A stretch of DNA of 62,225 nt from an uncultured Porphyromonadaceae bacterium (GTDB lineage Bacteria > Bacteroidota > Bacteroidia > Bacteroidales > Muribaculaceae): assembly GCA_947175495.1 (NCBI GenBank), contig CAMWNB010000010.1, positions 1-62,225 of the forward strand. The letters run 5' to 3'. The translations under genes and the position numbers were made by a program. Each line of letters starts with the position of its first letter. Within the stretch, counting starts at the first letter, position 1. Below the pieces are notes generated by a model. That model ran no database searches and had not been told where the DNA came from. It worked only from the letters and a program-made list of their open reading frames with translations. Below, piece after piece: positions 29,474-48,397 of the stretch.

Positions 29474-29498
29474 GACCCCGTTATTGAGGAACGGGGTC
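29474..29498. other. Second GC-rich hairpin directly after the terminator
   Basis: GACCCCGTT (29474-29482) pairs perfectly with AACGGGGTC (29490-29498) around a 7-base loop. It has no proper T-run, so it is probably not a terminator of its own. It begins one or two bases after the terminator stem ends. Confidence 0.7.
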
Positions 29499-29907
29499 TT
29501 CCATTCAGTGTCAACAACCATGTTGAAAACTGTTGAAACTCTCTCAGCAAATATCAACAACATTATTTGCAAATCCCGCATCCTTTTCCTATTGGAAATC
29601 CTCCCCGCCCACGCAACATTTTTCCACACAAAGTTTAAGCCGCCTTATCAACCCCTTTTTATACAGCTTAACACGGAAATCTCGACGAAAATTATTAACT
29701 TTGCACATTATTAACACAATGTAGATAAAGCAGCTAATTCTTTATTGGTCATGGTATAAGGCTGTTCATAAAGATTGAAAACCTCAGTTCGGAGTGCAAT
29801 AACCCATATTTGCAAGCTTTTGCCCGGAAAGTTATTGCCGTTATTTACAGCCTCTACTATTACTTCTGAAGAATTTATTTTTAAAATATAATCTAATAAA
29901 GAATATA
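29499..29907. other. AT-rich intergenic region before nadA
   Basis: This 409-base stretch is far richer in A and T than its surroundings. It holds several 9-mers resembling DnaA boxes or their variants (rc TTTTCAACA near 29520, TTTTCCACA near 29622), a -7 box TAACTTTG at 29696-29703, and an inverted repeat GCAATAAC (29796-29803) / GTTATTGC (29831-29838). The minus strand from 29938 to 29711 stays open for 75 codons and reads like real protein (for example TMTNKELAALSTL), possibly a gene remnant. I see no intact gene in it. Confidence 0.6.
29696..29703 (+). promoter_or_regulatory. Possible nadA promoter -7 box
   Basis: TAACTTTG fits the TAnnTTTG box. If it drives nadA, the leader would be about 200 bases and would contain the inverted repeat at 29796-29838. 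No other match lies nearer to the nadA start. Confidence 0.4.
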
Positions 29908-30876
29908 ATGACTGTCGAAAAAGGCTATGTCGACGCACCCGTCCCCGACGGTGTTGATATCGTTGCCGAGATACGTCGGCTCAAAAAAGAAAAGCAGGCT
30001 GTCGTCCTCGCCCACTACTATCAGAGCGGCGACATCCAGGATATAGCCGACCACGTCGGCGACTCGCTGGCAATGGCACAATACGCCGCCACACTCCGCG
30101 ACGCAAAAATCATCGTCGTCTGCGGAGTGCACTTCATGGGAGAGACCGCCAAGCTCCTCTGCCCCGACAAGAAAGTGCTCATCCCCGACACCAACGCCGG
30201 ATGCTCACTGGCCGACAGCTGCCCACCCGAAGCCTTCGAGGCATTCGTCAAGGCCCACCCGGACCACACCGTCGTCAGCTACGTCAACACATCAGTCGGC
30301 GTCAAGGCTCTCACCGACATCGTCGTCACCAGCGGCAACGCACGCAAGGTCATCGACAGCCTTCCTGCCGACGAGAAGATAATCTTCGGACCCGACCGAA
30401 ACCTCGGAAATTACATAAACGCGCAGACCGGCCGCCGGATGCTCCTCTGGGACGGCGCATGCCATGTGCATGAGCTCTTCTCCGCCGAGAAAATCGCCGC
30501 GCTCAAGGACCGGCATCCCGAAGCACGCGTGCTTGTCCACCCCGAGTGCAAGCGCCCGCTCACTCTGCTCGCCGACTGTGTAGGATCCACGGCGGCCCTC
30601 CTCAAATATGCGCAGGAGAATCCCGCCACCGAATTCATCGTAGCCACCGAGAGCGGCATCCTCCACGAGATGCGCCGCCTGTGCCCCGGCAAGACGTTCA
30701 TCCCGGCGCCGCCGAGCGACAGCACATGCGGCTGCAACGATTGCGCGTTCATGAAACTCATCACCATGGAAAAGCTCTACAACACCCTCCGCTACGAGCT
30801 TCCCGAAATCAACATCGATCCCGCCATTGCCGACCGTGCGCGCCGACCCATCGACTGCATGCTTGAACTTTCATAA
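29908..30876 (+). CDS. nadA: Quinolinate synthase NadA
   Basis: This 322-residue enzyme condenses iminoaspartate with dihydroxyacetone phosphate to quinolinate in NAD synthesis. The 4Fe-4S cysteines are in [17 protein letters not shown] and [31 protein letters not shown] is the N-terminal signature, and [11 protein letters not shown] and TESGI are substrate-site blocks. Neither nadB nor nadC is in the window, so the NAD pathway genes are dispersed. leuS follows after 14 bases. Confidence 0.96.
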
Positions 30877-30890
30877 GAATTATTCCCGCT

Positions 30891-33668
30891 ATGAACTATA
30901 ATCCGCAAGAGATAGAACCGCGCCTGCAGCAATACTGGCGCGACAACAACATCTATAAAGTGGAGGCCGACTCCACACGTCCCAAATTCTATGTGCTCGA
31001 CATGTTCCCCTACCCGTCGGGCGCAGGTCTGCATGTGGGCCATCCGCTCGGCTACATCGCCAGCGACATTTATTCGCGCTACAAGCGCCTCAAAGGCTTC
31101 AACGTGCTCCACCCCATGGGCTACGACGCCTACGGACTCCCCGCCGAGCAGTACGCCATACAGACGGGACAGCATCCCGAGACCACGACCACACAGAACA
31201 TCGCGCGCTATCGCTCGCAGCTCGAGAAAATAGGTTTCTGCTACGACTGGAGCCGAGAGATACGCACCTGCGATCCCTCCTACTACAAATGGACACAATG
31301 GGCCTTCAAGCGCATGTTCGAGAGCTACTACGACACCGCTGCCGACGCCGCACGCCCCGTAGCCGACCTCGTGGCGCATCTTGAGAAGCACGGCACCGAA
31401 GGCCTCCATGCCGCCGGCTCGAAAGAACTGTCATTCACGGCCGCCGAATGGCAGGCCATGGACGAGCGGGCCAAGAGCGACGCCCTCATGAACTGGCGCA
31501 TCGCCTACCTTGGCAACTCCATGGTCAACTGGTGTCCCGCCCTCGGCACAGTTCTCGCCAACGACGAAGTGAGCGAGGGCCTCAGCCTGCGCGGAGGATA
31601 TCCCGTCGAGCAGAAAATGATGTATCAGTGGTGCCTGCGCGTCAGCGCCTATGCAGGACGTCTGCTCAAAAGTCTCGACACACTCGACTGGACCGACTCT
31701 CTCAAGGAAACGCAGCGCAACTGGATAGGCCGCAGCGAAGGCGCCGAGATGCACTTCGCCATCGACGGCTCCGACGTCGTGCTCGACATCTTCACCACCC
31801 GTGCCGACACCGTCTTCGGCGTCACATTCATGGTGCTCGCACCCGAGAGCGCCTACGTCGACATGGTCACCACCCCCGACCGACGCGAGGCTGTCCGTGC
31901 CTACGTGGAAGCCACCAAGCGCAAGACCGAGCGCGAGCGCATGATCGACAAGAAAGTCAGCGGCGAATTCACCGGAGCCTACGCCATCAACCCCCTCAGC
32001 GGCGCCCGCGTGCCTGTCTACGTCAGCGACTATGTGCTCGCCGGCTACGGCACGGGAGCCATTATGGCCGTGCCGGCCCACGACAGCCGCGACTACGCCT
32101 TCGCCCGCCACTTCGATCTTCCCGTCATTCCCCTCATCGAGGGCGCCGACGTGTCGGAGGAGAGCTTCGACGCCAAAGAAGGCCGCATGATCAATTCCGA
32201 AGGCCCCGAACTCAACCTCAACGGCATGGAAGTGAAAGACGCCATCGCCGCCGCCAAGCGCTTCATCGAGGAGAAAGGAATAGGTCGCGTAAAAGTCAAC
32301 TACCGCCTGCGCGACGCCATCTTCAGCCGCCAGCGCTACTGGGGCGAACCATTCCCCGTATATTATAAGGACGGCATCCCCTGCCTCCTGCCCGACAGCG
32401 AGCTGCCGCTGCTCCTGCCCGAAATCAGCAGCTACAGGCCCACGGCCGACGGCGAGCCCCCTCTGGCACGCGCCGAGCACTGGTGCACCCCCGAAGGCTA
32501 CCGGCTCGAGCTCAACACCATGCCGGGATTCGCAGGCTCCTCGGCCTACTATCTGCGCTACATGGACCCCCACAACTCCGAAGCTCTCGTAAGCCCCGAG
32601 GCCAACGCCTACTGGCGCAACGTCGACCTCTACATCGGCGGCACAGAGCATGCCACCGGCCACCTCATCTACAGCCGCTTCTGGAACAAGTTCCTCTTCG
32701 ACCTCGGCGCAGTAGTCGAAGACGAGCCCTTCCGCAAGCTCATCAACCAGGGCATGATCCAGGGACGAAGCAATTTCGTCTACCGCATTAAAGACACTAA
32801 CACTTTTGTGTCGGCCGACCTCAAGGACCAATACGACACCACCGCCATCCATGTCGACGTCAACATCGTCAGCAACGACGTGCTCGACACCGACGCCTTC
32901 CGCGCATGGCGACCCGACTATGCCGACGCCGAGTTCGTGCTCAACGCCGACGGAAAGTATATCTGCGGCTACGCCGTAGAGAAAATGTCCAAGTCAATGT
33001 TCAACGTAGTCAATCCCGACGACATCGTGGAGCGTTACGGCGCCGACACGCTCCGCCTCTACGAGATGTTCCTCGGCCCGCTCGAGCAGAGCAAGCCATG
33101 GGACACCAACGGCATCGACGGCGTAAACCGCTTCCTCAAGAAATTCTGGGGACTCTACTTCAAGGGCGACACGCTCCTCGTCGACGACGCCGAGCCCACC
33201 GCCGACAATCTCCGAAGCCTCCACAAGCTCATAAAGAAAGTAGGTGCCGACATCGAGAACTTCTCGTTCAACACCTCCGTAGCCGCGTTCATGATCTGCG
33301 TCAACGAACTCTCGCAGCAGAAATGCACCTCGCGTGCCATTCTCGAGCCGCTGCTCGTGGTGATTGCACCCTTCGCCCCGCACATCGCCGAAGAACTCTG
33401 GCATGCCGCCCTCGGCCACACCCGCTCCATTGTCGACGCCGCATGGCCTGCCTTCAACGAAGAATACCTGCGCGAGAGCAGCGTCAACTACGCCGTCAGC
33501 TTCAACGGCAAGGCACGCTTCAACATGCAGATGCCCGCCGATGCGTCCGCAGCCGATGTAGAAGCGGCAGCCCTCGCCCACGAAAGCTCCGCGCGCTGGC
33601 TCGAAGGAAAGACCGTGCGCAAGGTAATAGTGGTGCCCGCCAAGATTGTCAACATTGTAGTGTCTTGA
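30891..33668 (+). CDS. leuS: Leucyl-tRNA synthetase
   Basis: This 925-residue class I synthetase charges tRNA-Leu. The HIGH-type motif is [16 protein letters not shown] (around residues 39-54), the editing domain carries [19 protein letters not shown] with the conserved Asp, and the KMSKS loop reads EKMSKSMFN (around residues 698-706). The C-terminal anticodon-binding and leucine-specific domains are present. It is longer than E. coli LeuS (860), with extra sequence near residues 145-185 and before KMSKS, as in other Bacteroidetes. Confidence 0.97.
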
Positions 33669-33717
33669 GCCGCGCAATAAAAGCCGCCGAAAGACGTTAA
33701 TATAGCGATATTACAGC

Positions 33718-34314
33718 ATGAAACAGCCGCGTACCATAATATTCGCCTCCCACAACGCCCACAAGGTTGAGGAAATGCGCCGCATCTGCGGCCCCGCCTT
33801 CCGCATCCTCTCGCTGGCCGACATGGGATGCGACACCGACATCCCCGAGGACGGCTCCACCCTGGCCGAGAACGCCGAGGCTAAAGCCCGGTGGGTGTAC
33901 GAACGATATGGCACGGAATGTTTCGCCGACGACACCGGTCTCGAGGTAGAAGCCCTCGGCGGTGCGCCGGGAGTGCACACGGCCCGCTTTGCCGGACCCG
34001 CATGCGACCCCGCGGCCAATGTGGCGCTCCTTCTGGAGCGCCTCAGCGGCGCGACGGACCGCAGCGCATGCTTCCGCACGGTAATAGCCCACATTGCAGC
34101 CGACGGCACCCTCACACGCTTCGACGGCATAGCCCGCGGAACTATCGCCGGCAGCCGCATGGGCGACGCCGGATTCGGCTACGACCCCGTATTCATCCCC
34201 GAAGGACACACCCGCAGTTTCGCGCAGATGGCGCCCGACGAGAAGAATGCCATAAGCCACCGCGGACGTGCCACTGCCCAACTCATCGACTTCCTACAAT
34301 CGTCACTCCAATGA
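33718..34314 (+). CDS. rdgB: RdgB/HAM1 non-canonical purine NTP pyrophosphatase
   Basis: This 198-residue house-cleaning enzyme hydrolyses ITP, dITP and XTP to monophosphates. The substrate motif SHNAHK lies at residues 11-16, the catalytic metal region is ADDTGLEVEALGG, GDAGFGYDPVFIPEG is the nucleobase pocket, and ISHRGRA closes the protein. All are intact. It overlaps the PorZ-like gene by ATGA. Confidence 0.95.
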   Translation: MKQPRTIIFASHNAHKVEEMRRICGPAFRILSLADMGCDTDIPEDGSTLAENAEAKARWVYERYGTECFADDTGLEVEALGGAPGVHTARFAGPACDPAANVALLLERLSGATDRSACFRTVIAHIAADGTLTRFDGIARGTIAGSRMGDAGFGYDPVFIPEGHTRSFAQMAPDEKNAISHRGRATAQLIDFLQSSLQ

Positions 34315-36719
34315 TAAAGCGACTTTACCTGTTTCTCCTCATATCGCTCCTTGCCGCCGGTGCAGCCTTTGCACAGGCCACCGGCACATGGAATCTGATG
34401 CCCGTGTACGGCGGCGCGGCCGAGCGCCTCGTCGACACACCCGACAAGGTGTACTACCTTTCGTCCGGACATCTTTTCTCCTACGACAAGGAAGCCGACG
34501 AGACGCGCCACTACTCATCCGTCAACTCCCTCAACGACGTAGACGTCACCCTCATTGCCTACAATCCCCGGGGGCGCTACCTCGCCGTGGTCTACTCCTC
34601 CCACAACATCGACCTCCTCTACGACAACGGCCGTGTGGTGAATCTTCCCGACATCCGCGACGCCAACATTTCATCCGACAAGACCGTCTCATCCATCGAT
34701 TTCACCCCGGACGGACGCATGTATGTGGCCACAGGTTTCGGATTCGTCGCGTTCGACGACAGCAAACACCGCGTGGCCGACAGCGGCATCTACAACGAAG
34801 CCTTCGTCTATGCCGGAGAGATTGGAGGCCATGTGGTCCTTGTGAAAGGCAACGAAATCTACGCATCGCCGGTCGATACACGCCACAACTCTTTTGACTC
34901 ATTCACCAGGATAGCCAATTTGCCGGGTACAGGCGCTGTTATGCACCGGCTCGGCACCGAACGTCTCGTGGCGAGAAACACTCTTGCCACGAGCTCCAAC
35001 AAATACTACATCGTCACGCCCGACTTCGCAGGAGCTTCAGCAGCCGTCACCACCATCGACAACGGCATCATGCGCATGGACTTCTGCGATGCACCCGACG
35101 GCAGCATCTACTTTGCCTCCGGCACCGTCATGCGCAACATTCAGCCCGACGGCACCGTCAAAGTAGTGAGCACGATGCCTTCCGGTTTATACAACAAAAC
35201 TCTCTTCACGCGCGTCGGCACAGCCTCCATATGGGCCTCCGACTTCACAGGCGTCGGAGAGTACTCCGTGTCCGATGCAGGCACCCTGACCATGCTCCGC
35301 GACCATGCCAAGCCCGAATCGCTCACATGCTCCTGGCCTGCCTTCATGACCCTCTCTCCCGACGGCAGCCGCATCTACATCTCCAACGTCGGCTACGATC
35401 CCATACTGGGCTATCTGACATCCGGCGACCAGGCTTTCTCCTTGCAGCAGACCACGAATATCATAGAAAACGGAATGGTCAGCGACGTCACATGCTACAA
35501 TATCGACAACACCGGCAAGGTGATGACAGGAGGCACACACGAGCCCGTAGAAGACCCTTCCGACCCCTCTGTCTACTACATCGCCAACTTCCAGAAAGGC
35601 ATATACAGAATTAAGGACGGCGAGCAGGTGGGACATATAGCAAGAGCTCAGATGCCTTTCTCCGAAAGCTGGGCACAGTGGGTGCACGATGTCCGAATCG
35701 ACCGTCACGGCAATTTGTGGATGGGCATATGGACAGCCAACGGCCGAAACCCCATATACATTCTTCCCGCCGATAAACTGCAGGATATGGACCACATTCA
35801 GCCGGCCGACTGGCTGATTCCCGCCGTTTCATCCTACAGCCACGGTTCGGGCATTGTGTCTCTGATGCACTCCCGCACCAACAACGTACTGTACTCCTCG
35901 CACCACAACATGCGCGGTTTGCTCGTCTACGACCACAAAGGCACAGAGACAAACCTGGCCGACGACACCCACAGCGTCTTCACCACTTTCGTCGACCAGG
36001 ACGGAGCGCAGAACACCATATCCAACGTGATACGCATGGTCGAAGACCCGCAGGGACAGATATGGGTATGCCATGAAAGAGGCATATTTGTGATTCCGGA
36101 TATAGCCACGGCCATACGCAGCAACGTCCTCTATGCCCGAAAGCCGAAAGTGGCGCGCAACGACGGCACCAACTACGCCGACTATCTTCTCGACGGCGAG
36201 CCGGTGATGGACATAAGCGTCGACCCGGCCGGCCGCAAATGGATTGCCACTAAAAATTCCGGCGCATACCTCGTCAGCGCCGACGGCACGCAGATTCTCG
36301 AAAACTACACCACCGAAAACTCATCGCTGCCGTCCAACAAGGTGCTCTCCGTAGTGGCCGACCCGCAGTCAAGCTACATCTATTTCGGCACGGAGAAAGG
36401 CGTCGTGTGCTACAGCAGCTCCGCATCGCCGGCAGCAGAGGACTATTCCGACGTCTACGCCTACCCCAATCCCGTACGCCCCGACTACACCGGATGGATC
36501 ACCATCACTGGGCTCATGGACAACTCGCTTGTGAAAATTACCGATGCCGCAGGCAATCTCGTCCACCAGGGCACAAGCGAAGGCGGAATGTACCTCTGGA
36601 ACGGCTGCAGCATGGCAAACCAACGCGTGCGCTCCGGCGTTTACTTTGTGTTCGCTTCTCAGAACGCCGCGGGCTCGGCATCGGGCAAGCCCGTTACTAA
36701 AATTATGGTGATAAACTGA
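34311..36719 (+). CDS. porZ: PorZ-like double beta-propeller protein with type IX-style C-terminal domain
   Basis: This 802-residue exported protein has a signal peptide of about residues 1-22 (ending AFAQA). Two sets of propeller repeats follow, with two-component-regulator-propeller blades such as VRIDRHGNLWMGI, VEDPQGQIWVCHERGIFVI and SVDPAGRKWIATKNSGAYLV. The C-terminal 85 residues start at YAYPNPVRPDYTGWITITG and end SGVYFVFAS...KIMVIN, a type A sorting-like beta-sandwich. In Porphyromonas, PorZ is a surface part of the type IX secretion attachment complex. The architecture and length match it. Whether this organism has a working type IX system cannot be judged from the window. Confidence 0.78.
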   Translation: MIKRLYLFLLISLLAAGAAFAQATGTWNLMPVYGGAAERLVDTPDKVYYLSSGHLFSYDKEADETRHYSSVNSLNDVDVTLIAYNPRGRYLAVVYSSHNIDLLYDNGRVVNLPDIRDANISSDKTVSSIDFTPDGRMYVATGFGFVAFDDSKHRVADSGIYNEAFVYAGEIGGHVVLVKGNEIYASPVDTRHNSFDSFTRIANLPGTGAVMHRLGTERLVARNTLATSSNKYYIVTPDFAGASAAVTTIDNGIMRMDFCDAPDGSIYFASGTVMRNIQPDGTVKVVSTMPSGLYNKTLFTRVGTASIWASDFTGVGEYSVSDAGTLTMLRDHAKPESLTCSWPAFMTLSPDGSRIYISNVGYDPILGYLTSGDQAFSLQQTTNIIENGMVSDVTCYNIDNTGKVMTGGTHEPVEDPSDPSVYYIANFQKGIYRIKDGEQVGHIARAQMPFSESWAQWVHDVRIDRHGNLWMGIWTANGRNPIYILPADKLQDMDHIQPADWLIPAVSSYSHGSGIVSLMHSRTNNVLYSSHHNMRGLLVYDHKGTETNLADDTHSVFTTFVDQDGAQNTISNVIRMVEDPQGQIWVCHERGIFVIPDIATAIRSNVLYARKPKVARNDGTNYADYLLDGEPVMDISVDPAGRKWIATKNSGAYLVSADGTQILENYTTENSSLPSNKVLSVVADPQSSYIYFGTEKGVVCYSSSASPAAEDYSDVYAYPNPVRPDYTGWITITGLMDNSLVKITDAAGNLVHQGTSEGGMYLWNGCSMANQRVRSGVYFVFASQNAAGSASGKPVTKIMVIN

Positions 36720-37255
36720 TGGACAATAGTTTACTTAAATATAAAGACGAACGCGACAAAAGCTACGGTGTGGCAGGCATGGCCATAGCCGTTGTCGCCT
36801 ACGATTGCGAGGACATGCTCGCTTCCGTTTCAATGGATGCCGACCCGGGACATGCCATTGAATTCGGTTCTGAATTTTATTTCAACGGCAATCCGCGTCT
36901 TTCGGCCAAAATTGCATGGACCGAACTTCTTAAGCAGTTTCGCCTGGCCACCGGTCTGCTTGTGGCCAATGCAATGAGCCGCAACTATGTGCAGCATCGG
37001 CGGCGCCTTTCTTTCGATACAGAGAAGGCACTCCGAGAAATCATCCACGCCTGCGGAGCCGAGGACGAGACACAGCTCGACGACGACGAGATTGACGCCG
37101 TGATCGAGCGCAACTTCGAGTTCTTCAACCGTCTCTTCCAGATGCAGGCAGTCCACGAGGCAGCCCATTCGCTTGCCTCGCAGCTTGTGGAGCGGCGCAC
37201 ACTCACACCCGCCGAAGTCGTCGACCGCCTCGCATCGATGATGCGCTATCTGTAG
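36719..37255 (+). CDS. Conserved protein of unknown function coupled to the PorZ-like gene
   Basis: This 178-residue cytosolic-looking protein has no signal peptide or membrane helix. It begins with a beta-rich segment (YGVAGMAIAVVAYDCEDMLASVSMD), then EFGSEFYFNGNPRLSAKIAWTELLKQF, then an all-helical, acidic C-terminal half. I do not recognise a named family. Its ATG overlaps the TGA of the PorZ-like gene by one base, so production is linked, although one product is exported and the other probably is not. Its stop overlaps the 3' end of the opposite acyltransferase by 10 bases. Confidence 0.7.
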   Translation: MDNSLLKYKDERDKSYGVAGMAIAVVAYDCEDMLASVSMDADPGHAIEFGSEFYFNGNPRLSAKIAWTELLKQFRLATGLLVANAMSRNYVQHRRRLSFDTEKALREIIHACGAEDETQLDDDEIDAVIERNFEFFNRLFQMQAVHEAAHSLASQLVERRTLTPAEVVDRLASMMRYL

Positions 37256-38295
37256 AGAAACCTTTTCCCTATCGCAAACCAGGAAAAGCAGGATACAGCC
37301 GTGACCGCACAGGTGATAAGCGATAGTCTGGCAATTGCAGAACACCCCTCGAACCATCCGCATTGCAGCGACACCAGCAGTATGGGCATATGATATAGAT
37401 ACATATCATACGACACGTTGTTGACGTTGAGTTTTTGCAGAAACCCGAAGTTGCCGGCGAACGAAAACAACAGAGTGGCCGTAGACACCACGAGCGGACT
37501 TATAATTATCTCATAATATGGCATATTGCTTGCCGTAAGGACGATAAGCAAAACAATGATTGCTATTCCTATGCGGTGCTTCATGAAAAAATCATGAACA
37601 AAATAGATAAGCACGCCTGTGTAAAAATACATCAGCTGTCCGAACACCTGACGTGAGAGAATATTATATATCTCCTTATCCGTTGTCAGATATAAATGGC
37701 TGAAACACAATCTGTACGCCATAGACATCACATATATTCCCACAACCGTCCACACTACGTTCCTGAGAGAGTTCCCTCTCTTTTTGTGCAGCATAGCGAT
37801 GATAGCGGAGAATATGGGAATGGAAATATACAGCAACACCTCTATTTTTATAGTCCACAACGACCCGTTCACAGCATGCACCGGAAGGCTTTGGAACACT
37901 CCCGGAAGTTCCGGTTCAAGAAAATTCAGAAACACCGCATTGCTGACCACATACTTCAGCCAGTCTATGTTGAAAAAGTATTCTTTCCACGACAACGTGC
38001 TGAAAGCTACCAGTCCGAACGCACAGAGCAGAACTATAAATAGATACGGCGGAAGAATCCTTCTGGCGCGTCTCAGCAGGTAAGGTCTTATGCCGCCCGA
38101 GCTCAGCCAGCTTTTATACACAAGAAATCCGCTTAATGCGAAGAATCCCCCCACCGCATTGTAGCTCGACGTAGGCATCGCAAAATCAGTGCCGTACACC
38201 AGATTGAAATGAGCTGTTATCACGCACATGGCGAGATAATAGCGCACCGCCCCCATGTTGTTGGCATACTTGCCACTTGCTTTCGCTTTCTCCAC
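37246..38295 (-). CDS. Acyltransferase family 3 membrane protein
   Basis: This integral membrane protein of about 349 residues has around ten hydrophobic helices. It follows the OafA/YrhL-type acyltransferase-3 pattern, with N-terminal RYYLAMCVITAHF (catalytic-type His), GGFFALSGFLVY and RARRILPPY blocks. Such enzymes acetylate surface glycans. The chosen start is the GTG at 38295; an ATG at 38256 (MGAVRYY) is equally possible. The open frame upstream of these lies inside wbqC. The coding sequence is clearly poorer in G and C than every neighbour, which suggests horizontal gain. Confidence 0.85.
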   Translation of the reverse strand: MEKAKASGKYANNMGAVRYYLAMCVITAHFNLVYGTDFAMPTSSYNAVGGFFALSGFLVYKSWLSSGGIRPYLLRRARRILPPYLFIVLLCAFGLVAFSTLSWKEYFFNIDWLKYVVSNAVFLNFLEPELPGVFQSLPVHAVNGSLWTIKIEVLLYISIPIFSAIIAMLHKKRGNSLRNVVWTVVGIYVMSMAYRLCFSHLYLTTDKEIYNILSRQVFGQLMYFYTGVLIYFVHDFFMKHRIGIAIIVLLIVLTASNMPYYEIIISPLVVSTATLLFSFAGNFGFLQKLNVNNVSYDMYLYHMPILLVSLQCGWFEGCSAIARLSLITCAVTAVSCFSWFAIGKRFLYR

Positions 38296-38302
38296 GCCTA
38301 CA

Positions 38303-38902
38303 TCACATTTCCTGTTTCCCCATCGCGCGCCGCAACGCAAGCGCTGCCTCCGGGCCGAGGTTGAATATAAGATCAAGCACGCTCAGGCCGTCCAGAAAAC
38401 CTAATTCTGCCTGTCGCACCTGCCAGTATGCGCCTACCGACCCCGCAGGAGGCATTTTCACGCTCTCTGACGCGTCGTAACTGATTTTCGTGTCAATCAT
38501 CAGTATCTTGCACACAGCCTCGTTCACGGCCTTTATTTGTGCCTCCAGAGCCGTTCCCTCTTCAGGAAACAGCGCCGGAGCCAGCCTGTCGATATAAAAC
38601 TCATAGAAAGGCGTGCGTCCGTAGGCCGACGCCAGCGACGTAGCGTGCACTGCCTGCCATCGTCCGTGCCCGCTTATGCGCACATCGGTCCACCGCGCGT
38701 TGGGCACGCCGTGAGGCGCCTGCACAGGCACCGTCAGCATCAGTCGGCCGCGCGTGTCGGCCACCTCGTAGCGGTGGGTCTCCTTGCGCCGTTTGTCGTA
38801 TGGAGCGTGCATCGCTATGTCCACATGCGCGCATTGCCCCATCAGCGCATAATATGCGGCCGACGGGGCAAGTGCGGGAGGTAGTAATAATTTTTCCGTC
38901 AT
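38303..38902 (-). CDS. WbqC-like family protein
   Basis: This 199-residue protein shows the WbqC pattern: LLLPPALAPSAAYYALM at the start, YDKRRKETHRYEVADTRGRLMLTVPVQ in the middle, and YEFYIDRLAPALF. WbqC-like proteins are linked to O-antigen or surface-sugar loci, but their reaction is not settled. In Bacteroides relatives, it follows lepB as here. Its ATG overlaps the lepB stop by ATGA, and the acyltransferase begins 8 bases after its end. Confidence 0.85.
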   Translation of the reverse strand: MTEKLLLPPALAPSAAYYALMGQCAHVDIAMHAPYDKRRKETHRYEVADTRGRLMLTVPVQAPHGVPNARWTDVRISGHGRWQAVHATSLASAYGRTPFYEFYIDRLAPALFPEEGTALEAQIKAVNEAVCKILMIDTKISYDASESVKMPPAGSVGAYWQVRQAELGFLDGLSVLDLIFNLGPEAALALRRAMGKQEM

Positions 38903-40359
38903 TTATCCGGATTGGCGTCCTTGAGTATGCGGTTCCAGCGTATGCCGCCGTTCAGAAGGCTGCGGTCTCGGTCGAAGCTGATGAGCACACGCATCGGAGT
39001 GCCCACCACATGGTCTTCCGGCACGAAACCCCAGAAGCGCGAGTCCTGCGAGTTGTCGCGGTTGTCGCCCATCATGAAGTAATAGTCCATCGCAAAGGTA
39101 TAGGCCTGTGCCGGCTTGCCGTCGATAAACACCGTGCCGTCATCAGCCAGCCACGAGTTCGTGTGGCCCTCATAGTTGCGTATCACCCTGTGATACATCT
39201 TCCATGCCGACGGCGACATCTTCACGGTCATGCCCTTCTTGGGGATCAGCACGCCATGCTCGCCGCCGTAGTTGCTCAGAGTCCATTCTTCGGCCAGGCC
39301 TTCCGGGAAGAGATTCAGCGCAGCGCCGTCCGTGGCGAACACATCGCCGAATTTCACCGCGTCGTGCAGCGTTCCGTCGGCACGCAGCTCGGCTATCATC
39401 TGCTGCGTCATAGGCATCACATAGAAGAAATCGTTGGCCTGCGCGCCGGGCAGTATGGCCGAAAGCCTCATGCGGTCCGTGCCTTCGGCCATCAGAGCCT
39501 GCACGTCGCCCTGGGCTATGCCAAGCGCGTGCATACGGTCCTCGTCGATCGGACGGCTCACTGCCGCTATGTAGTTGAACTGCACATTCTCCGGCATAGC
39601 CTGCGCCTTGCCGTCGATGTAGATGGTGTCGTTTACTATGCGCAGCCGTTCGCCGGGCAGGCCCACCGCGCGTTTCACAAAGTTCTGCCTGCGGTCCACA
39701 GGGCGGTAGATCACCTCGCCGAACTGTTCCGGATTCTGCCTTATGGTCTCGCGGCCGTAGCGCTTCACCAGCAGGTCGTAATACTCCGGCGACTCCTCGT
39801 AGCGGGCACACACAGTGTCGCCCGCAGGAAAGTTGAACACCACGATGTCGCCGCTCTCCACGCCGCGAAGGCCGCGAAGGCGGCGATATTCGTTGCTCGG
39901 GCTGTCAAGATAGCTCTTGCAGCCCAGCACCGGCAGCTTGTTGTGCACAAGAGGAAAATGCACAGGCGTCATGGGCACGCGCGGACCGTACATCAGCTTG
40001 TTCACCCACAGGTAGTCGCCCGTCAGAAGCGTCTTTTCAAGCGACGACGACGGTATCTGGTAATTCTGTCCCACGAAGGCGAACACGAAGTAAACAAGCA
40101 CCAGCGCGTACACGATCGCGTCCACCCAGCTCATCACTCCGGTCACGGCCTTGTTCTTGCTCTTCTTCCACCACGTCAGAGGGATGTACCCGGTGATGTA
40201 GATATCGAACAGCAGCACCAGGCCCAGAGCCCACCACGGGCTGCCAAGCCAGGCCACCCATGCCAGGTAGATGAGCCCAACTATGCCGAAACGCACCCAG
40301 CGGGTGGTTTTCACCTGCGAGATGCGTTCGTGGAAATCACTTTTGAAATCCTTGCTCAT
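38899..40359 (-). CDS. lepB: Signal peptidase I, long Bacteroidetes form
   Basis: This 486-residue membrane serine protease removes signal peptides from exported proteins. Two or three N-terminal helices are followed by the catalytic Ser block IPSSSLEKTLLTGDYLWV, the general-base Lys in FVKRAVGLPGERL, and the C-terminal box MGDNRDNSQDSRFWGFVP. About 200 residues are inserted between box C and box D, as in Bacteroidetes, where LepB is far longer than the E. coli protein. It is transcribed with the Lrp-type regulator before it (4-base overlap). Confidence 0.94.
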   Translation of the reverse strand: MSKDFKSDFHERISQVKTTRWVRFGIVGLIYLAWVAWLGSPWWALGLVLLFDIYITGYIPLTWWKKSKNKAVTGVMSWVDAIVYALVLVYFVFAFVGQNYQIPSSSLEKTLLTGDYLWVNKLMYGPRVPMTPVHFPLVHNKLPVLGCKSYLDSPSNEYRRLRGLRGVESGDIVVFNFPAGDTVCARYEESPEYYDLLVKRYGRETIRQNPEQFGEVIYRPVDRRQNFVKRAVGLPGERLRIVNDTIYIDGKAQAMPENVQFNYIAAVSRPIDEDRMHALGIAQGDVQALMAEGTDRMRLSAILPGAQANDFFYVMPMTQQMIAELRADGTLHDAVKFGDVFATDGAALNLFPEGLAEEWTLSNYGGEHGVLIPKKGMTVKMSPSAWKMYHRVIRNYEGHTNSWLADDGTVFIDGKPAQAYTFAMDYYFMMGDNRDNSQDSRFWGFVPEDHVVGTPMRVLISFDRDRSLLNGGIRWNRILKDANPDK

Positions 40360-40826
40360 TTGTAGCTTACGGGTATTTCGCGCGATATGGAGTTGTCAAG
40401 TGAGATAAGGGTTTCAGTCCCGACTACGCCGGGTATCATCTGTATCTTGTTGTTCAGAAGATCCATCAGATGCTCATTGTCGCGGGCATAAAGTTTCACC
40501 AGCAGTGTGTAAGGACCGGTGGTGAAATGACACTCCACAATCTCCGGAATCTTCTCGAATTCGGGCACGGCGTCGCGGTACATGGCGCCGCGTTCAAGCG
40601 TCACGCCTATATAAGTGCAGGTGCTGTAGCCCAGCACATGGGGGTCCACCGAGTAGCCCGAGCCGGTGATTACATTCATGTCTATCATGCGTTGGATGCG
40701 CTGGTGGATGGCTGCGCGGCTCACTCCGCATTCTATTGCTACGTCTTTTGAGGGGATGCGTGCGTTGTGCATCACAATCTTGAGAATGTGTCTGTCAAGA
40801 TTGTCAATTTTGTCCATATGTGGCAT
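40356..40826 (-). CDS. Lrp/AsnC-family transcription regulator
   Basis: This 156-residue regulator has an N-terminal helix-turn-helix (LDRHILKIVMHNARIPSKDVAIECGVSRAAIHQRIQRM) and a C-terminal RAM effector domain (VTLERGAMYRDAVPEFEKIPEIVECHFTTGPYTLLVKLYARD), usually binding amino acids. The second ATG (40817, MDKIDNL) is also a possible start. It overlaps lepB, so it may control its own operon of lepB, wbqC and the acyltransferase, though that is inference. Confidence 0.93.
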   Translation of the reverse strand: MPHMDKIDNLDRHILKIVMHNARIPSKDVAIECGVSRAAIHQRIQRMIDMNVITGSGYSVDPHVLGYSTCTYIGVTLERGAMYRDAVPEFEKIPEIVECHFTTGPYTLLVKLYARDNEHLMDLLNNKIQMIPGVVGTETLISLDNSISREIPVSYK

Positions 40827-40843
40827 TGTACTGAAATTTTTTA

Positions 40844-40872
40844 CAAAAGTAACAAATTTCTATCAAATACAA
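40844..40872 (-). promoter_or_regulatory. Promoter for the Lrp-lepB operon
   Basis: On the minus strand, TACTTTTG (40844-40851) fits the -7 box, with TTG (40870-40872) 18 bases upstream as -33. The expected leader before the ATG at 40826 is about a dozen bases. Confidence 0.6.
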
Positions 40873-40953
40873 GCAATATTGTCTCAAAAAACCGCAAAAT
40901 ATGTCGCATAACATACTTTTAACTCCCTATCACATCCCACTTTGCAAAAATAT

Positions 40954-42552: not shown

Positions 42553-42617
42553 GCACAAAGAAGCGACATTCCCGCACAAGCCGCTTAAAACAAGTAAATC
42601 CATCCCCTCATAGACCA

Positions 42618-42650
42618 TAATTTTGCAGCATAATTCACAAATCTGCAAAA
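42618..42650 (+). promoter_or_regulatory. Promoter with overlapping inverted repeat (candidate operator)
   Basis: TAATTTTG (42618-42625) is a -7 box. A perfect inverted repeat TTTTGCAG (42621-42628) / CTGCAAAA (42643-42650) overlaps it and spans the expected transcription start. The ATG of the 778-residue protein follows at 42660. A repressor binding there would block the operon. Confidence 0.5.
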
Positions 42651-42659: not shown

Positions 42660-44996
42660 ATGAAATCCTACATCTGCCGCCCGCTCGGACTCTCCTCCCG
42701 CGTTTCCGCATGCCACAACCTCCGTCCCGCTCCCGACGGCTCCGCCCGTCTCACAGCAGTCGGAATGCCTGCCATAGTTGCCCCTGCCGGACACAATCCC
42801 GTCCTCCACTTCTCCGTCCCCGATGGCATGCGCCTTCTCACCCATGTCGGTCGCGAACTCTACCTCATCCGCCCGTCCCGCATGCCGCTTCATCTCGGCA
42901 CACTCCCCGCCGAACCCCTCTGCGCCGTCGCCACTGCCGACCGCATCGTCGTCTCCACCTCCGCGGGCATGGTCACACTCTCCGCGCCCTCCTACAGCGT
43001 CCCCGATGCAGTCGCATCCCTCCCGGCCGTCTCCCTCCGCGCCGTCAGCCGTGGCCTCGTCCGCGCCGACGTTGCTCCCCGCACTCTCTCCGGAGGCGAC
43101 TACCGCCGCCAGTCGGCCCTCACCCCGGCCGATGCACGCACAGTCAGCGCCGACCTCCGCGCAGCCTACACAGCCCTTTGTCAGTATGCAGCCGAGCAGT
43201 CGGCCATGCTCCAGCCGGCACTCGCCTCCTACACCCTCCTCGACGCCGAAGGCCGCGAACTGTTCACTTCTCCGCCGGTCCTCCTCGGCACGCGTCAATG
43301 CCTCACGGCCGTCAACGCCACATGTGGTTCCGACGGCCTCCTTGCCAGCTACACCCTCACTGCCGACACATGGCAGCCCGAACTGTCCGTTCCGCCCCAT
43401 GCCTGCCCGGGCGTGCGCTCGGTCCGCGTCACCCTATCGCCGCAGCTCCACCCCGTCGACCCCGGCACAGAGGCCGACACATGGCTGCGCCACACCGCCG
43501 CCGACACCACTGTCACTGCCCGCCTGCACACCACCGTACTCACCCCCGCCACCATCCGCGAGGCAGCAGCGCGCATGCCCCGGCTGTGCCGTGTCGTAAG
43601 CGTTGTATCCGCGTCGCCGGCCACCTGCGTCATCCCCTGCCCTCCCTCCGCAGGTCCGCATGCCGAGATTGCCGCCCTGTCCGCAGTCCTTGAACGCCCC
43701 GTTGCCGAAGTCAGCCGTGCAGCAGCACTCACGCAGGCGCCCCACTCCTTCACCGCCTCATGCGGAGCCGTCTCGGGCGACACGGTCATGTGGGGAAATA
43801 TCACCTCCTGCCCCTACGCCGGCTACCCGGCCCCGCTGCTCGCCGCGTCCGTTGCCGACGACGAATCATGGCAGGCCTACGTCGCCGTAGACTTCGCCTC
43901 CGGCGCGCGGGCCGTCTGGACCGGTTCCGGTTCCTCCTCCGCGCCCCTTGCCTTCTCCCCGCTTCTCTGCTATCCGTCGCCCGATGCGGTCAGCCTCACC
44001 ATAGGTCTGTCCACCCCGACACGCACAGTGCGCTCTGTTTTTCCACTCACTCCGGTTCCGGGCGGCCGCATGTCGGCCTATGTCGCCGACTCCCTTGCCC
44101 CTGTAGCCCTCGATGCGGTCTCTTCCTATGCCGTCCCCGACCCCATCGTCATCCCCGTCTCCCGCCCCGCCACCGTCATTGCCGCCGCGGCCGGCGCTCC
44201 CTTCGTGCCGATAGCCCTGCGCGGAGGCTTCGGCCACAGCAGAGTCCGCCTTCTTCCATCCCTCGGCAGCACATCCTCATGGGATTTCGGCCGCACACGC
44301 ATGCTCGCCTTCGGCACCGGCGGCATCTACTCCGTAGCTCTCGGGTCTTCCCGTGCTTCCCTCGCCGCAGGCCGCATCGACAGCCGCCGCACCTCCTCGG
44401 CGCTTGCCGTAGCCGAGGCATCCGACGGTGCCGTCTACGCCATCGCCGGCGGCGACCTCGTCTCGGTCACAGCCCGCGGAGCCACCACCCTCATCCCCGA
44501 CTGCGGCTTCTCCGCCCTCGCCTGGAATCCCGCCTTTGCCGAGCTATGGTGTTTTCCGTCCGACGGCGACACCGCCACAGTCATCTCCACCGCCCTCCGC
44601 GGCCTTCCGCGCCACATGCGCTCTCTGCCCCTCTCAGGCTCCGTCGCAGGACCCTGCATCGCCACGCCCGACGGCATTCGCGCCCTCCATCTCGAGCAGG
44701 CCGCCACGCTCCCCGTGGCCTGGACAGCCACCTTCGCTCCGGCCGACGGCTACCTCTGCCGTCCCTCCCGTTTCACATTCCACATGGGAGGCACATCCGT
44801 CGACCTGCGCCTGTCCGTAGCCGCCGCCTCGTGGCTTTCCGCCGAGCCCCTGCCCGTGCTCACGGGCCGTTTCACCGGCGACATCCGCTCCGCTCTCGTC
44901 CTCCGTCCGATTCTCCGCCCCGTCCGTGCCGTACGCCTCAGCGTCGAAGGCACCGCCGCAGCCGATTTCTCACTCTCTAAAATCACCCTGCAATGA
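42660..44996 (+). CDS. Uncharacterised 778-residue protein upstream of terminase
   Basis: I do not recognise this family. The 778-residue protein has no signal peptide and no membrane helix, few Lys residues and many Ala, Ser, Pro and Leu. It appears all-beta in the second half, with regularly spaced strand patterns (DFASGARAVWTGSG, SYAVPDPIVIPVSR, AFGTGGIYSVALGSS, ASDGAVYAIAGGDLVSV, LAWNPAFAELWCF) that suggest a propeller. The N-terminal block (YICRPLGLSSRVSACHNLRPAPDGSARLTAVG) looks like a fixed domain start. Codon use is as C-rich as host genes. Its stop overlaps the terminase start by ATGA, so the pair is translated as a unit and the proteins probably cooperate. A virion or packaging partner is possible, but not shown. 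Confidence 0.75.
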   Translation: MKSYICRPLGLSSRVSACHNLRPAPDGSARLTAVGMPAIVAPAGHNPVLHFSVPDGMRLLTHVGRELYLIRPSRMPLHLGTLPAEPLCAVATADRIVVSTSAGMVTLSAPSYSVPDAVASLPAVSLRAVSRGLVRADVAPRTLSGGDYRRQSALTPADARTVSADLRAAYTALCQYAAEQSAMLQPALASYTLLDAEGRELFTSPPVLLGTRQCLTAVNATCGSDGLLASYTLTADTWQPELSVPPHACPGVRSVRVTLSPQLHPVDPGTEADTWLRHTAADTTVTARLHTTVLTPATIREAAARMPRLCRVVSVVSASPATCVIPCPPSAGPHAEIAALSAVLERPVAEVSRAAALTQAPHSFTASCGAVSGDTVMWGNITSCPYAGYPAPLLAASVADDESWQAYVAVDFASGARAVWTGSGSSSAPLAFSPLLCYPSPDAVSLTIGLSTPTRTVRSVFPLTPVPGGRMSAYVADSLAPVALDAVSSYAVPDPIVIPVSRPATVIAAAAGAPFVPIALRGGFGHSRVRLLPSLGSTSSWDFGRTRMLAFGTGGIYSVALGSSRASLAAGRIDSRRTSSALAVAEASDGAVYAIAGGDLVSVTARGATTLIPDCGFSALAWNPAFAELWCFPSDGDTATVISTALRGLPRHMRSLPLSGSVAGPCIATPDGIRALHLEQAATLPVAWTATFAPADGYLCRPSRFTFHMGGTSVDLRLSVAAASWLSAEPLPVLTGRFTGDIRSALVLRPILRPVRAVRLSVEGTAAADFSLSKITLQ

Positions 44997-46870
44997 GCAC
45001 CCCGCCCGAAATCCTTCTCGAAAACGCCCGTCGCATGCGCCTTCGCGCCAAGCTCGAAACCGACTACGACCCCATCTCCGGGCGCGGCGCCTGCGGGCCG
45101 CGCGTATTCGTCGGCCACACTCCCGTGGAAGAAATTGCCAAAGCATGGATACCGCGCGCCATGCGCGACGACCCCGCCTACCCGTCCGCCACGACCGATT
45201 CCCTTGCCTGGCGGCGCTTGCGATGCCGCTACGATTTCGAGTACTGGTGCGTAAGCTGCGTCACCATCCACCACAAGGTCACACGCCTCGAGTCGCCGTT
45301 CATCCTCAACTATCCCCAGCGCCGGGTCCTCGCCATCCTCGAGGCCGACCGCCTCGCACGCATCCCCATGCGCGTCATCATGCTTAAGGCGCGCCAGTGG
45401 GGAGGCAGCACACTGGTGCAGATGTATATGGCATGGATTCAGAGCTGCCTGCGCCGCAACTGGAATTCGCTCATCTGCGCCCACGTCAAGGACACAGCCG
45501 CAAGCATCCGCGGCATGTACACTCGCATGCTCGCATCCTATCCTCCCGAGCTCTGGGACGGCGACGAGCCGCCGAGGTTCGTCCCCTACGAGCGCACAAT
45601 CAACGTCCGCGAACTCACCGGGCGCGGCTGCCTCGTCACCATAGGCTCGGCCGAAAACCAGGAAGCCGTCCGGGGAGCCGACTATGCCATGGCCCACCTC
45701 AGCGAGACAGCCTTCTGGCCATCCACGCCGCGCTCCTCGCCCGACGATTTCATACGCGCCGTCTGCGGAGCCATAGCACTCATCCCCGACTCGCTCATCG
45801 TCATGGAGAGCACAGCCAACGGTGTAGGATCCTACTTCCATCGCGAGTGGACGCGCTGCAAGCAGGGAAAAGGCGACAAGCACGCCATCTTCATCCCATG
45901 GCACGAGATAGCCATCTATCGCATGGAACCGCCCGAAATCGACGGATTCTACGAGACATTCACCCCCTACGAACGCATGCTCTGGGACATGGGGCTCGCC
46001 TTCGACCAGATTTATTGGTACCGCCGCAAGCTCACCGAGCAGACCGACCACGCCAAGGTGATGGCCGAGTTTCCGACCACCGACATCGAAGCATTCATCA
46101 ACACAGGTTCCGGCGTATTCGCCACCGAGCACGTCGAGCGCATGCGGGCCGGCTGCTGCAAGCCGCTGCGGCGCTGCGAGCCGGCAGCAGGAGGTATCTT
46201 CCGCGACGACTCTCTCGGCCGTCTGCTCGTATGGCGCGACGTCGAGCAGGGCGCACGCTACGTCGTCAGCGTCGACATAGGCGGACGTTCCGACAAGTCC
46301 GACTGGTCCGTAATCTCGGTCATGCGCCGCGCCGGCTACGGCTCCGACGTCCACGAGGTCGTGGCGCAGTGGCGCGGACACACCGACCACGACATCCTCG
46401 TCGCCCACGCCGAGAACATTGCCCGCCACTACAATCTCGCACTCCTCATCATCGAGAGCAACACACTCGAGAGCGAGGCCTCCGGCGACCCCAATCTCTT
46501 TGTCCTCTCGCGGCTTGCCGAGCGCTATTCCAACATCTACATGCGCCGGGGCTTCGATTCCGTTACGGGCGAAGCCACGCAGCGCATCGGCTTCCACACC
46601 AACCGCGCCACAAAGGCGGTCATAATATCCGAACTCATCGCCGCCGTCCGCGACGGTCTCTACATCGAGCGCGACAGCCGAGCGTGCGACGAGCTCCTCA
46701 CCTACGAGCAGCAGTCCAACGGCGCTTTCGCGGCACGGGCCGGTTGCCACGACGACATCCTCATCACCCGCGCCCTCGCCCTGCATGCCCTCCACGGCCT
46801 ACCGGCGCCGCGCTCCGATGTGCGCCCTACGGTTCTTGCCGCCCGCCCCGGTTTCCGCTCGCGCTGGTAG
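44993..46870 (+). CDS. Phage-type terminase large subunit (TerL), full length
   Basis: This 625-residue protein carries both TerL domains. The ATPase has the deviant Walker A KARQWGGST (residues 132-140), Walker B ending in catalytic Glu238 (HLSETAFW) and the coupling motif STANG (273-277). The nuclease has the RNase-H-like acidic triad Asp428 (VDIGGRSDKSDW), Glu488 (LLIIESNT) and Asp587/Asp588 (GCHDDIL). TerL cuts and pumps phage DNA into proheads. No small terminase, portal, protease or capsid gene is present within the window, and the gene uses host-like codons. Its 3' end overlaps the opposing xerD by 44 bases. Confidence 0.92.
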   Translation: MSTPPEILLENARRMRLRAKLETDYDPISGRGACGPRVFVGHTPVEEIAKAWIPRAMRDDPAYPSATTDSLAWRRLRCRYDFEYWCVSCVTIHHKVTRLESPFILNYPQRRVLAILEADRLARIPMRVIMLKARQWGGSTLVQMYMAWIQSCLRRNWNSLICAHVKDTAASIRGMYTRMLASYPPELWDGDEPPRFVPYERTINVRELTGRGCLVTIGSAENQEAVRGADYAMAHLSETAFWPSTPRSSPDDFIRAVCGAIALIPDSLIVMESTANGVGSYFHREWTRCKQGKGDKHAIFIPWHEIAIYRMEPPEIDGFYETFTPYERMLWDMGLAFDQIYWYRRKLTEQTDHAKVMAEFPTTDIEAFINTGSGVFATEHVERMRAGCCKPLRRCEPAAGGIFRDDSLGRLLVWRDVEQGARYVVSVDIGGRSDKSDWSVISVMRRAGYGSDVHEVVAQWRGHTDHDILVAHAENIARHYNLALLIIESNTLESEASGDPNLFVLSRLAERYSNIYMRRGFDSVTGEATQRIGFHTNRATKAVIISELIAAVRDGLYIERDSRACDELLTYEQQSNGAFAARAGCHDDILITRALALHALHGLPAPRSDVRPTVLAARPGFRSRW

Positions 46871-47765
46871 CGAAGCTGCGAGGGTGGCAGCGCTCTATCT
46901 CCTCGCGCAGCCGCGCGTTCTCCAGATGCAGGTAGATCTCAGTCGTGCCTATGCTCTCGTGCCCGAGCATCTGCTGGATAGCGCGCAGGTTGGCGCCGCC
47001 CTCCAGCAGCGCCGTGGCAAAAGAGTGCCGCAGCGTGTGGGGCGATATTTCTTTCCTTATCCCCGCAGCCTCCGCCAGTTCCTTCACTATGTAGAACACC
47101 ATCACACGCGTCAGACGCCGTCCGCAGCGGTTCAGAAACACATATCCCTCATGCCCGGACTTCACCGGGTACGTCTCCCTTTCCGCCAGCCAGTCCGTCA
47201 CCTCGGCCACGGCGCTTGCGCTCATCGGCACCATGCGTTCCTTGGTCCCCTTGCCGGTCACTGTCAGATAACCCAGCTCAAGATTCATGCGGCTTATCTC
47301 AAGGCCCGTGAGCTCGCTCACACGCAGCCCGCAGCTGAACATCACCTCTATCATCGCACGGTTGCGCTGCGCGTGCGGGCGCGTAGGGTCTATCGACGCC
47401 ATCATCGCGTCCACTTCGTCCACCGTCAGCACTTCCGGCAGGTGCATCCCCGTGCGCGGCGCGTCTATCAGCAGGGTAGGGTTCTCGTCCACCATCCGCT
47501 CCAGTTTCATGAATCTGTACAGCGACTTCACCCCCGATATTACCCTTGCCTGGCTTCGCGCGGCTATGCCCAGGTCGTGAAGATCGCCCACAAAGTGCAG
47601 CAGGTCGTCAGTCGTGGCCGTCTGCGGCGTCAGTCCGTGCTCCTGCAGCCATGCGTCCAGCCGCAGGGCGTCCGCGGCATAGGCCAGGCGCGTGTTCTCG
47701 CTCATGCCGCGTTCCAGCAGCAGCCACGCGGCGTAGCGCGTGTGAAGTGTAGCTCCCGCGCTCAT
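46827..47765 (-). CDS. xerD: Tyrosine recombinase XerD/XerC
   Basis: This 312-residue tyrosine recombinase is of the chromosome-dimer-resolution type. The N-terminal SAM-like domain is complete (YAAWLLLERGMSENTRLAYAADALRLDAWL). Catalytic residues are seen as SCGLRVSEL (Arg), TGKGTKERMVP (Lys), PHTLRHSFATALLEGGANL (His-x-x-Arg), LGHESIGTTEIYLHL (His, then nucleophile Tyr). It is most similar to housekeeping XerD and not to phage integrases. The last 15 or so residues (FATSASGNRGGRQEP) extend past the usual end and lie over the terminase 3' end. It overlaps the DUF4294 gene by ATGA, as part of the pdxJ-to-xerD series. Confidence 0.92.
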   Translation of the reverse strand: MSAGATLHTRYAAWLLLERGMSENTRLAYAADALRLDAWLQEHGLTPQTATTDDLLHFVGDLHDLGIAARSQARVISGVKSLYRFMKLERMVDENPTLLIDAPRTGMHLPEVLTVDEVDAMMASIDPTRPHAQRNRAMIEVMFSCGLRVSELTGLEISRMNLELGYLTVTGKGTKERMVPMSASAVAEVTDWLAERETYPVKSGHEGYVFLNRCGRRLTRVMVFYIVKELAEAAGIRKEISPHTLRHSFATALLEGGANLRAIQQMLGHESIGTTEIYLHLENARLREEIERCHPRSFATSASGNRGGRQEP

Positions 47766-48397
47766 CTTATCGTTCCCTCCTCCACGCCGCACGCTATGCG
47801 CTCTATCGTCGCGTCCTCCTTGTCCTTCTGAGGGTTGTAGTCGGCCTTCAGGCTCACGCCGAACAGCTTGCCGAATCCCTGCCAGAACCCCGCGCGGAAG
47901 CTGCCGAGGAAGGCGCGTATTATGTCGTAGCTCGACTGGTTCGTCTCTCTCTGTATCAGCTTCACCAGCACCCGCGCCTGACGCCGCGAGAATTTCTTCA
48001 GCACAGGCTTGTACTGCTCGAACAGCGCTTTCTCCATCTTCTTCAGATAGTCCTCGCGCTCCTTCTTCGTAGGGAAAGTCTCGATATACTCGTAGGTCTC
48101 AACCAGCGTCTCGGCAATCAGCTTGGCATAGGGTAGGGTGAGCTTCACGTCCCGCACCGTCCGCCAGTAGAATTGCTCCTCCTTCTTGTTCTTGAATTTC
48201 AGCTTCGGAAACACCGTTATCCCCCTTAGCGCCAGCACCGGCACCGTGTCCCCTTCCTCGTCTATCTTGAAATAATATCCCGTATAGTATGGCTCCCGTC
48301 CTGTCCCCGGGTCCTCAAGCGTCCGCGTCTTGGCCGAAGCGGACATCGCCGCCCCGACAATCAGAAACAATATGCAAAACCGCTGTCCCATACTCAT
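47762..48397 (-). CDS. DUF4294 exported protein
   Basis: This 211-residue protein has a signal peptide (residues 1-23, ending SASAK). The DUF4294 core follows: GYYFKIDEEGDTVPVLALRGITVFPKLKFKNKKEEQFYWRTVRDVKLTLPYAKL, then a helical basic half. The family is Bacteroidetes-specific and of unknown function, and is usually beside xerD as here. A second ATG two codons later (48391) is possible. Confidence 0.85.
   Translation of the reverse strand: MSMGQRFCILFLIVGAAMSASAKTRTLEDPGTGREPYYTGYYFKIDEEGDTVPVLALRGITVFPKLKFKNKKEEQFYWRTVRDVKLTLPYAKLIAETLVETYEYIETFPTKKEREDYLKKMEKALFEQYKPVLKKFSRRQARVLVKLIQRETNQSSYDIIRAFLGSFRAGFWQGFGKLFGVSLKADYNPQKDKEDATIERIACGVEEGTIR

Follow-up and report, generated by a model that had tools for sequence, protein, structure and literature searches.

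Within a 62,225-nt stretch of DNA from an uncultured Muribaculaceae bacterium (contig CAMWNB010000010.1 of assembly GCA_947175495.1, hereafter the window), two adjacent genes encode a protein that we call P1 and a phage-type terminase large subunit, TerL. This pair and its relation to phage head genes elsewhere in the same and related genomes are the subject of this analysis. Both frames are open in the reading of the window and overlap by 4 bases, as the first-pass annotation of this DNA had described (Table 1). TerL had been described as full-length with its catalytic residues in place. Indeed, K132, Q135, G137, S139, E238, D428, E488, D587 and D588 were invariant in all 47 rows of an alignment comprising 40 family rows and 7 rows from phages or viral contigs. 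TerL matched PHROG family phrog_2 (E 3.1e-23), its top PDB match was T4 gp17 (E 2.4e-7), and no Pfam match was found up to E 1. P1, as a single sequence, gave zero matches in Pfam, PHROG, NCBIfam and PDB up to E 1, in line with its earlier description as unrecognised.

TerL had been presented as an orphan, but the same genome carries a portal, a capsid protein, a connector (184 aa), a candidate small terminase (k4, 139 aa) and a further protein, k5 (141 aa), in one cluster on contig C7, as well as an endolysin-type amidase on contig C51. With P1 and TerL on contig C10, the set thus occupies three contigs. A 75-aa frame upstream of the capsid gene on C7 corresponds to another set member, k2, by position and by eye. 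The idea of an orphan terminase or defence nuclease was dropped after portal and capsid had been found in the genome itself and in the family. Profiles for capsid, portal, scaffold, connector, candidate small terminase, k5, holin and endolysin detected no further member in the window at E 0.01. The locus is not an intact prophage, for the window holds only P1 and TerL of the set, with no contiguous phage genome containing replication and integration genes.

The earlier statement that no small terminase, portal, protease, capsid, tail, integrase or lysis gene lies nearby stood with respect to head genes and to a clear phage integrase, but the last 44 bases of the TerL frame are shared with a tyrosine recombinase gene on the opposite strand. 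The recombinase scored above the cut-off of NF001399 and, with 312 bits, just below the cut-off of 329.6 for TIGR02225 (XerD), and we take it to be a presumptive host gene. Codon use had been considered host-like. The GC content at third codon positions agreed with this (0.77 for P1 and 0.82 for TerL; neighbours mostly ~0.78), but codon usage correlated poorly with that of 13 selected neighbours (0.34 and 0.48, respectively). Because two other plus-strand genes tested had similarly low correlations (0.32 and 0.45), strand is a likely cause. Between positions 36719 and 53292, the tested plus-strand genes, including P1 and TerL, deviate in codon use from most minus-strand neighbours, and this stretch has a negative GC skew.

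Table 1 Features of the P1-TerL locus in the window and of the set elsewhere in the same genome (C7 and C51 denote other contigs)
Feature	Position	Strand	Description
GCGACATTCCCGCAC	42563..42577	+	Similar to the element seen in other lineages, but 55 instead of 37 bases upstream of the -7 box; a weak match without significance in the window genome
TAATTTTG	42618..42625	+	Putative -7 promoter box of the P1-TerL unit; same box before many P1 genes
P1	42660..44996	+	Phage structural-type protein, 778 aa; putative tail or nozzle role; first gene of the P1-TerL unit; homologues in BS-TP4, L041 and L268
P1/TerL stop-start overlap	44993..44996	+	4 bases, from the coordinates of the open reading frames
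TerL	44993..46870	+	Terminase large subunit, 625 aa; ATPase and nuclease residues intact
Tyrosine recombinase	46827..47792	-	XerD/XerC-type by score
Portal	C7:72102-73418		PF16510, E 2e-13
Capsid (major capsid protein)	C7:73969-75462		PF17236, E 1.5e-53; SU10-type
Endolysin-type amidase	C51:2634-3041		Profile match

TerL was found in 181 of 198 Muribaculaceae genomes (134 of 141 good genomes, 29 of 30 genera), mostly as a single copy. Profile searches of 196 family genomes found the portal in 184, the capsid in 180 and P1 in 173; each of the four genes is thus present in 88-94% of the 196-198 genomes, true prophages being included in these counts. TerL also occurs in the cultured strains Heminiphilus faecis AM35, Muribaculaceae Isolate-002 and Muribaculaceae Isolate-013. 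TerL, portal and capsid were jointly absent from five genomes (G026, G047, G084, G147 and G172; completeness 62-91%), two of which are at most 65% complete. G026, G047 and G084 belong to genus g26, of which a fellow member, G067, has all three genes. True prophages are represented by at least 16 portal matches, at the top of the list, that span nearly the full phage model; most others stop near position 535-550 of 658. Holin and phrog_822-type amidase genes, prophage copies included, were found in 74 and 75 of 139 family genomes, respectively.

Of 41 loci, the window included, 31 have P1 ahead of TerL in the same orientation with a gap of up to ~1.1 kb, one has it ~2.4 kb downstream, and in nine it is outside the fetched stretch. 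The genes flanking the pair are otherwise mostly different between loci. P1 was also found in 60 of 80 named loci, many of which come from the same genomes as the 41 and many of which are cut by contig ends. A contiguous set in the order P1-TerL-k2-capsid-connector-portal-k4-k5 is present in L078 and L080, and L373 has the order P1-k2-capsid-connector-portal. In genera other than g6 (see below), an amidase or holin gene adjoins the portal, connector or P1 gene (L367-L372). The Muribaculaceae k2 and portal proteins measure 80-170 aa and 422-495 aa, respectively, when the split portal of L130 is excluded. According to the first-pass annotation, portal and capsid genes at the same locus in close relatives would mark the pair as a plain prophage remnant. 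L078 and L080 literally match this description, yet their loci are part of the family-core set; because the set is core to the family, we consider them a domesticated head module instead.

Across the order, TerL matches were found in 35 of 393 genomes (206 genera). Six other families account for 25 of the 35, with best matches of 813-865 bits, and may have further members among 338 match-free genomes absent from the listing. The portal was present in 24 and the capsid in all 25 of these genomes, mostly at scattered positions. In the one-contig genome G486, TerL starts at 1427504, the capsid at 1395210 and the portal at 1148864; lying hundreds of kilobases apart, these loci, we infer, cannot share one phage-sized fragment. 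The fetched six-family loci encode scaffolds of 251-331 aa and portals of 619-714 aa, longer than k2 and the portal of Muribaculaceae. G216, G505 and second copies in G331 and G427 have the look of contiguous prophages.

Related TerLs (35-37% identity) occur in three Bacteroides phages that carry a portal gene and a DUF5309-type capsid gene; Pfam identified a P22-type portal and an SU10-type capsid in one of them, BS-TP4. TerL, portal, capsid, connector and P1 of the set all match phage proteins. In viral contig L039 and prophage L268, k4 homologues lie directly upstream of TerL with a 4-base overlap each, and in the three Bacteroides phages they lie one gene further upstream; Pfam and PHROG assigned no function to k4. 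In the phage records PQ571277, PQ571269 and PQ571263, TerL carries the annotation 'tail spike protein'. BS-TP4 (L042) encodes proteins of 2645 and 5391 residues at 7518-15455 and 24730-40905, and a reverse transcriptase is also present.

The 72-row TerL tree placed all 41 rows from Muribaculaceae in one clade and the 18 six-family rows in another, each with a Shimodaira-Hasegawa-like approximate likelihood ratio test (SH-aLRT) support of 99; support for f60 was only 58. A capsid tree of 40 rows grouped in the same way (89 and 98, with 80 for both together). These gene trees indicate mostly vertical inheritance and co-diversification with the hosts at family and genus level. The ratio of non-synonymous to synonymous substitution rates (dN/dS), calculated by the Nei-Gojobori method on close pairs, was 0.028-0.121 for TerL (14 of 89 pairs printed), 0.036-0.106 for the capsid (8 unsaturated pairs of 14 printed), 0.084 and 0.111 for the portal, 0.189 for P1 (one pair) and 0.284 for k4 (one independent pair). 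These values are far below 1, the level that had been proposed as an argument against a kept function. TerL, capsid, portal and P1 are clearly under purifying selection, as the genes of a phage would be too: the portal of a true-prophage pair gave 0.082, and a low value alone is no proof of domestication.

P1 had been described as an unknown protein. P1 profiles matched phage structural proteins, namely gp26 of BS-TP4 (E 4e-16) and a protein of viral contig L041 (E 5e-19), and a homologue is present in prophage L268; these phage homologues rule out an unrelated host protein. Compared with PDB, the P1 profile gave no convincing match (best E 0.088). The PHROG family phrog_32516, which has no assigned function, matched 12 of 54 P1 members, and a PHROG tail-protein family matched one of the 54 (E 0.0099). 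We infer a tail or nozzle role for P1. Its identity to the window protein is 19-32% (alignment A3) versus 44-61% for the family TerLs (alignment A4), suggesting that P1 evolves fast.

The P1-TerL unit is preceded by a putative promoter with a -7 consensus box. We compared the 90 bases upstream of this box between the P1/TerL-locus and capsid/portal-locus promoters of 16 genomes. The test was run after the sequences had been inspected and was thus not blind; G077, whose P1 has no -7 box, was left out, for G010 the start of P1 was assigned manually, and a TTCG box variant was allowed. Same-genome pairs, 5 of the 16 lying within 20 kb of each other, had a mean score of 17.0 versus 8.03 for cross pairs (standard deviation 1.95, maximum 17), which none of 20,000 permutations reached. 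The true partner ranked first in 13 of 16 genomes, second in G094 and G022 and eighth of 16 in the window genome; among the 11 distant pairs (separate contigs, or no less than 45 kb between the loci), 9 ranked the partner first. In 13 of 15 printed alignments, the distance between match and box was equal in both promoters to within one base, and the element varies by lineage. Within the window genome, the promoter of the capsid locus and that of the amidase gene have 18 of 24 bases in common at an identical offset, whereas none of 14 control promoters shares more than 13 with either.

A first motif search had yielded the -7 box only, and the upstream element emerged after trimming. A motif score trained on P1 promoters (58 promoters, 355 controls), and hence not independent of them, placed 4 of 16 k2 promoters and 2 of 17 k4 promoters above the 95% level of the controls. 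A smaller effect was seen in the other families, where 24 same-genome pairs had a mean of 11.54 versus 9.37 for 160 cross-family pairs; none of 20,000 resamples, made under changed settings and treating pairs as independent, reached this value.

In genus g6, the dyad pattern ATTAYCRCACN{18,26}TANNTTTG occurs in 12 of 16 genomes with 3-39 sites each, whereas a reversed control occurs in none; the window contains no match. Three of the seven sites in G130 precede P1-TerL, connector-portal and capsid. In G054, G184 and G117, the element precedes a phage-type holin gene (PF05105; each match exceeds the cut-off) and an N-acetylmuramoyl-L-alanine amidase gene (phrog_822, lysis), which in G054 stand among frames reading by eye as host genes. 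Small proteins were also seen behind the element. One expanded family (motif PVSxKFY ... EIDxAxxRSxxAR) makes up 26 of the 49 frames downstream of fetched g6 sites (L305, L307, L309, L311, L313, L314, L324-L329, L332, L336, L337, L340-L345, L354, L355, L358 and L359, with L316 counted). A second family (motif RYLGRxLTPxE) makes up four (L304, L306, L347 and L351), of which L304 and L306 had no Pfam or PHROG match. In G117, the element is followed by L356, a DUF6808 protein (1.5e-26), and L357, which has AAA_25 and helix-turn-helix similarity and might be a helicase or a regulator.

The kept genes are thus those for building, filling and releasing a phage-like head, and they occupy several loci, have promoter elements in common and group by host lineage. 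Three of the six features in the accessible part of the published definition of gene transfer agents (GTAs; PMC9662315) are found in these sequences: derivation from tailed phages, full endogenisation at several loci, and mostly vertical inheritance with co-diversification. The remaining three describe the particles themselves: mostly random host DNA as their content, a head too small for the complete genome, and delivery of the DNA to other cells. We conclude that P1-TerL is probably one locus of a domesticated, split and co-regulated phage head-and-packaging set, most likely a GTA. That the set specifies a domesticated and functional DNA-packaging particle appears highly probable, and we lean towards the view that host DNA is transferred to other cells. 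In such a system, a single regulator would switch on all loci together, and a head would be built from the capsid protein, a reduced scaffold, the connector and the portal. TerL, perhaps with k4 as the small terminase, would load fragments of the host chromosome into this head, holin and amidase would lyse the cell, and P1 would form the tail end contacting the recipient.

Several points weigh against this conclusion. TerL is missing from 17 of the 198 family genomes, and the family counts include true prophages; in G052, which belongs to the genus of the window, TerL is absent and the capsid match has an in-frame stop. In the TerL tree, viruses and prophages fall on the other side with a weak support of 65, and the split between domesticated and viral capsids is also weak (80). 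The P1 promoter of the window genome agrees with the capsid-locus and amidase promoters at 12 and 11 bases, which is the control level, and profile searches found no holin in this genome. Tail genes other than P1 were not identified, k4 is a candidate small terminase by position alone, and the particle, its packaged DNA and the transfer are predictions from the genes. In addition, a 2026 long-read study of three human donors, in its accessible part, attributes GTA-like packaging chiefly to Bacillota (Ruminococcaceae and Oscillospiraceae) and describes lateral transduction for Bacteroides (PMC12946183); its text contains no word starting with 'Muribacul' or 'Barnesiella'.

The main rival explanation is a PBSX-like killing particle, in which the same genes package host DNA but kill related strains without DNA transfer. 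Such a particle would equally need head, terminase and lysis genes, and the fast evolution of P1 relative to TerL is what a binding protein in conflict might show. However, no dedicated killing or tail-fibre gene was identified, and vertical keeping over seven families suits transfer or repair as well; we consider this explanation unlikely. It is less probable still that some other host function, without DNA-packaging particles, explains why the head genes persist, for example with capsid or terminase parts interfering with related phages. Neither the ATPase nor the nuclease residues of TerL vary, which argues against this, as does the joint retention of capsid, connector, portal, terminase and lysis genes with a common promoter element, although the scattered single loci and the shortened Muribaculaceae portal and scaffold could reflect lost particle assembly.

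The first-pass annotation had suggested that the pair is not a decaying prophage but a domesticated system or an old remnant kept by selection; for the window genome, absence of decay, domestication and selection are supported. Ordinary prophage remnants, acquired repeatedly and decaying, are very improbable as an explanation for genes that are each present in 88-94% of the searched genomes and in 29 of 30 genera, form clades following the host family and have promoter elements in common between separate loci. Moreover, TerL, portal and capsid are jointly lacking in the five genomes mentioned above, although two of them are at most 65% complete. Related phages and true prophages do exist (BS-TP4, BF1-TP2, L268 and G184:C1:2069483), and G052 exemplifies decay in some lineages.

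If the set is indeed a GTA, the Muribaculaceae, a major family of the mouse gut, own a built-in particle for the exchange of chromosomal DNA. It would represent a further independent origin of GTAs and show that GTAs can fragment into very small loci yet remain coordinated. The cultured strains bearing TerL make the idea directly testable, and a search for separate phage-derived genes with mutually similar promoters inside one genome offers a strategy for finding such systems. We give roughly even chances to a broader proposal, namely an ancient, independently domesticated Bacteroidales GTA that predates the split of the seven families, has fragmented into loci of one to few genes and is controlled through a co-evolving regulator-bound element. 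In some lineages, its regulon would have increased to dozens of sites, along with enlarged families of small proteins, and some of the GTA-like chromosomal DNA reported from virus-like particles of the mouse gut (PMC7667829) could stem from it. According to the accessible part of that transductomics study, 46 contigs show generalised-transduction or GTA-like patterns, and Bacteroidetes is the commonest phylum among the pattern contigs (83), with contamination possible for some patterns. Among the open-licence full texts listed by our searches, judged by title and opening lines of the abstract, none reported a GTA in Bacteroidota.

Among known systems, the Bacteroides phages BS-TP4, BKO1-TP3 and BF1-TP2 all have homologous TerL (35-37% identity), portal, capsid, connector and k4, and BS-TP4 also has a P1-type protein. 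In contrast to the Muribaculaceae set, their head genes lie within ~20 kb of one phage genome and include a full-length portal and a longer scaffold, and the annotation of BS-TP4 lists integrase and replication genes, its proteins reaching 5391 aa. PBSX of Bacillus subtilis, a DNA-packing killer in the accessible part of PMC7667829 and compared here by description only, is likewise phage-derived and packages host DNA but differs in its known killing activity. The FpGTA candidate of Faecalibacterium, also compared by description only from the accessible part of PMC12946183, is similar in belonging to a gut bacterium and in having TerL, portal, capsid and scaffold, but it forms one 10.5 kb operon, has long-read packaging evidence and belongs to another phylum. 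The established GTAs RcGTA, BaGTA and BhGTA/VSH-1, as described in the accessible part of PMC9662315, resemble the Muribaculaceae set in having head, portal and terminase genes from tailed phages, a distribution over several chromosomal loci, lysis genes under the same control and host-family clades. Unlike them, the Muribaculaceae set has so far been recognised only as genes; it descends from a different type of ancestor, with an SU10-type capsid and a P22-type portal by Pfam, many genomes have loci of only one or two genes, and its promoter element co-evolves across loci.

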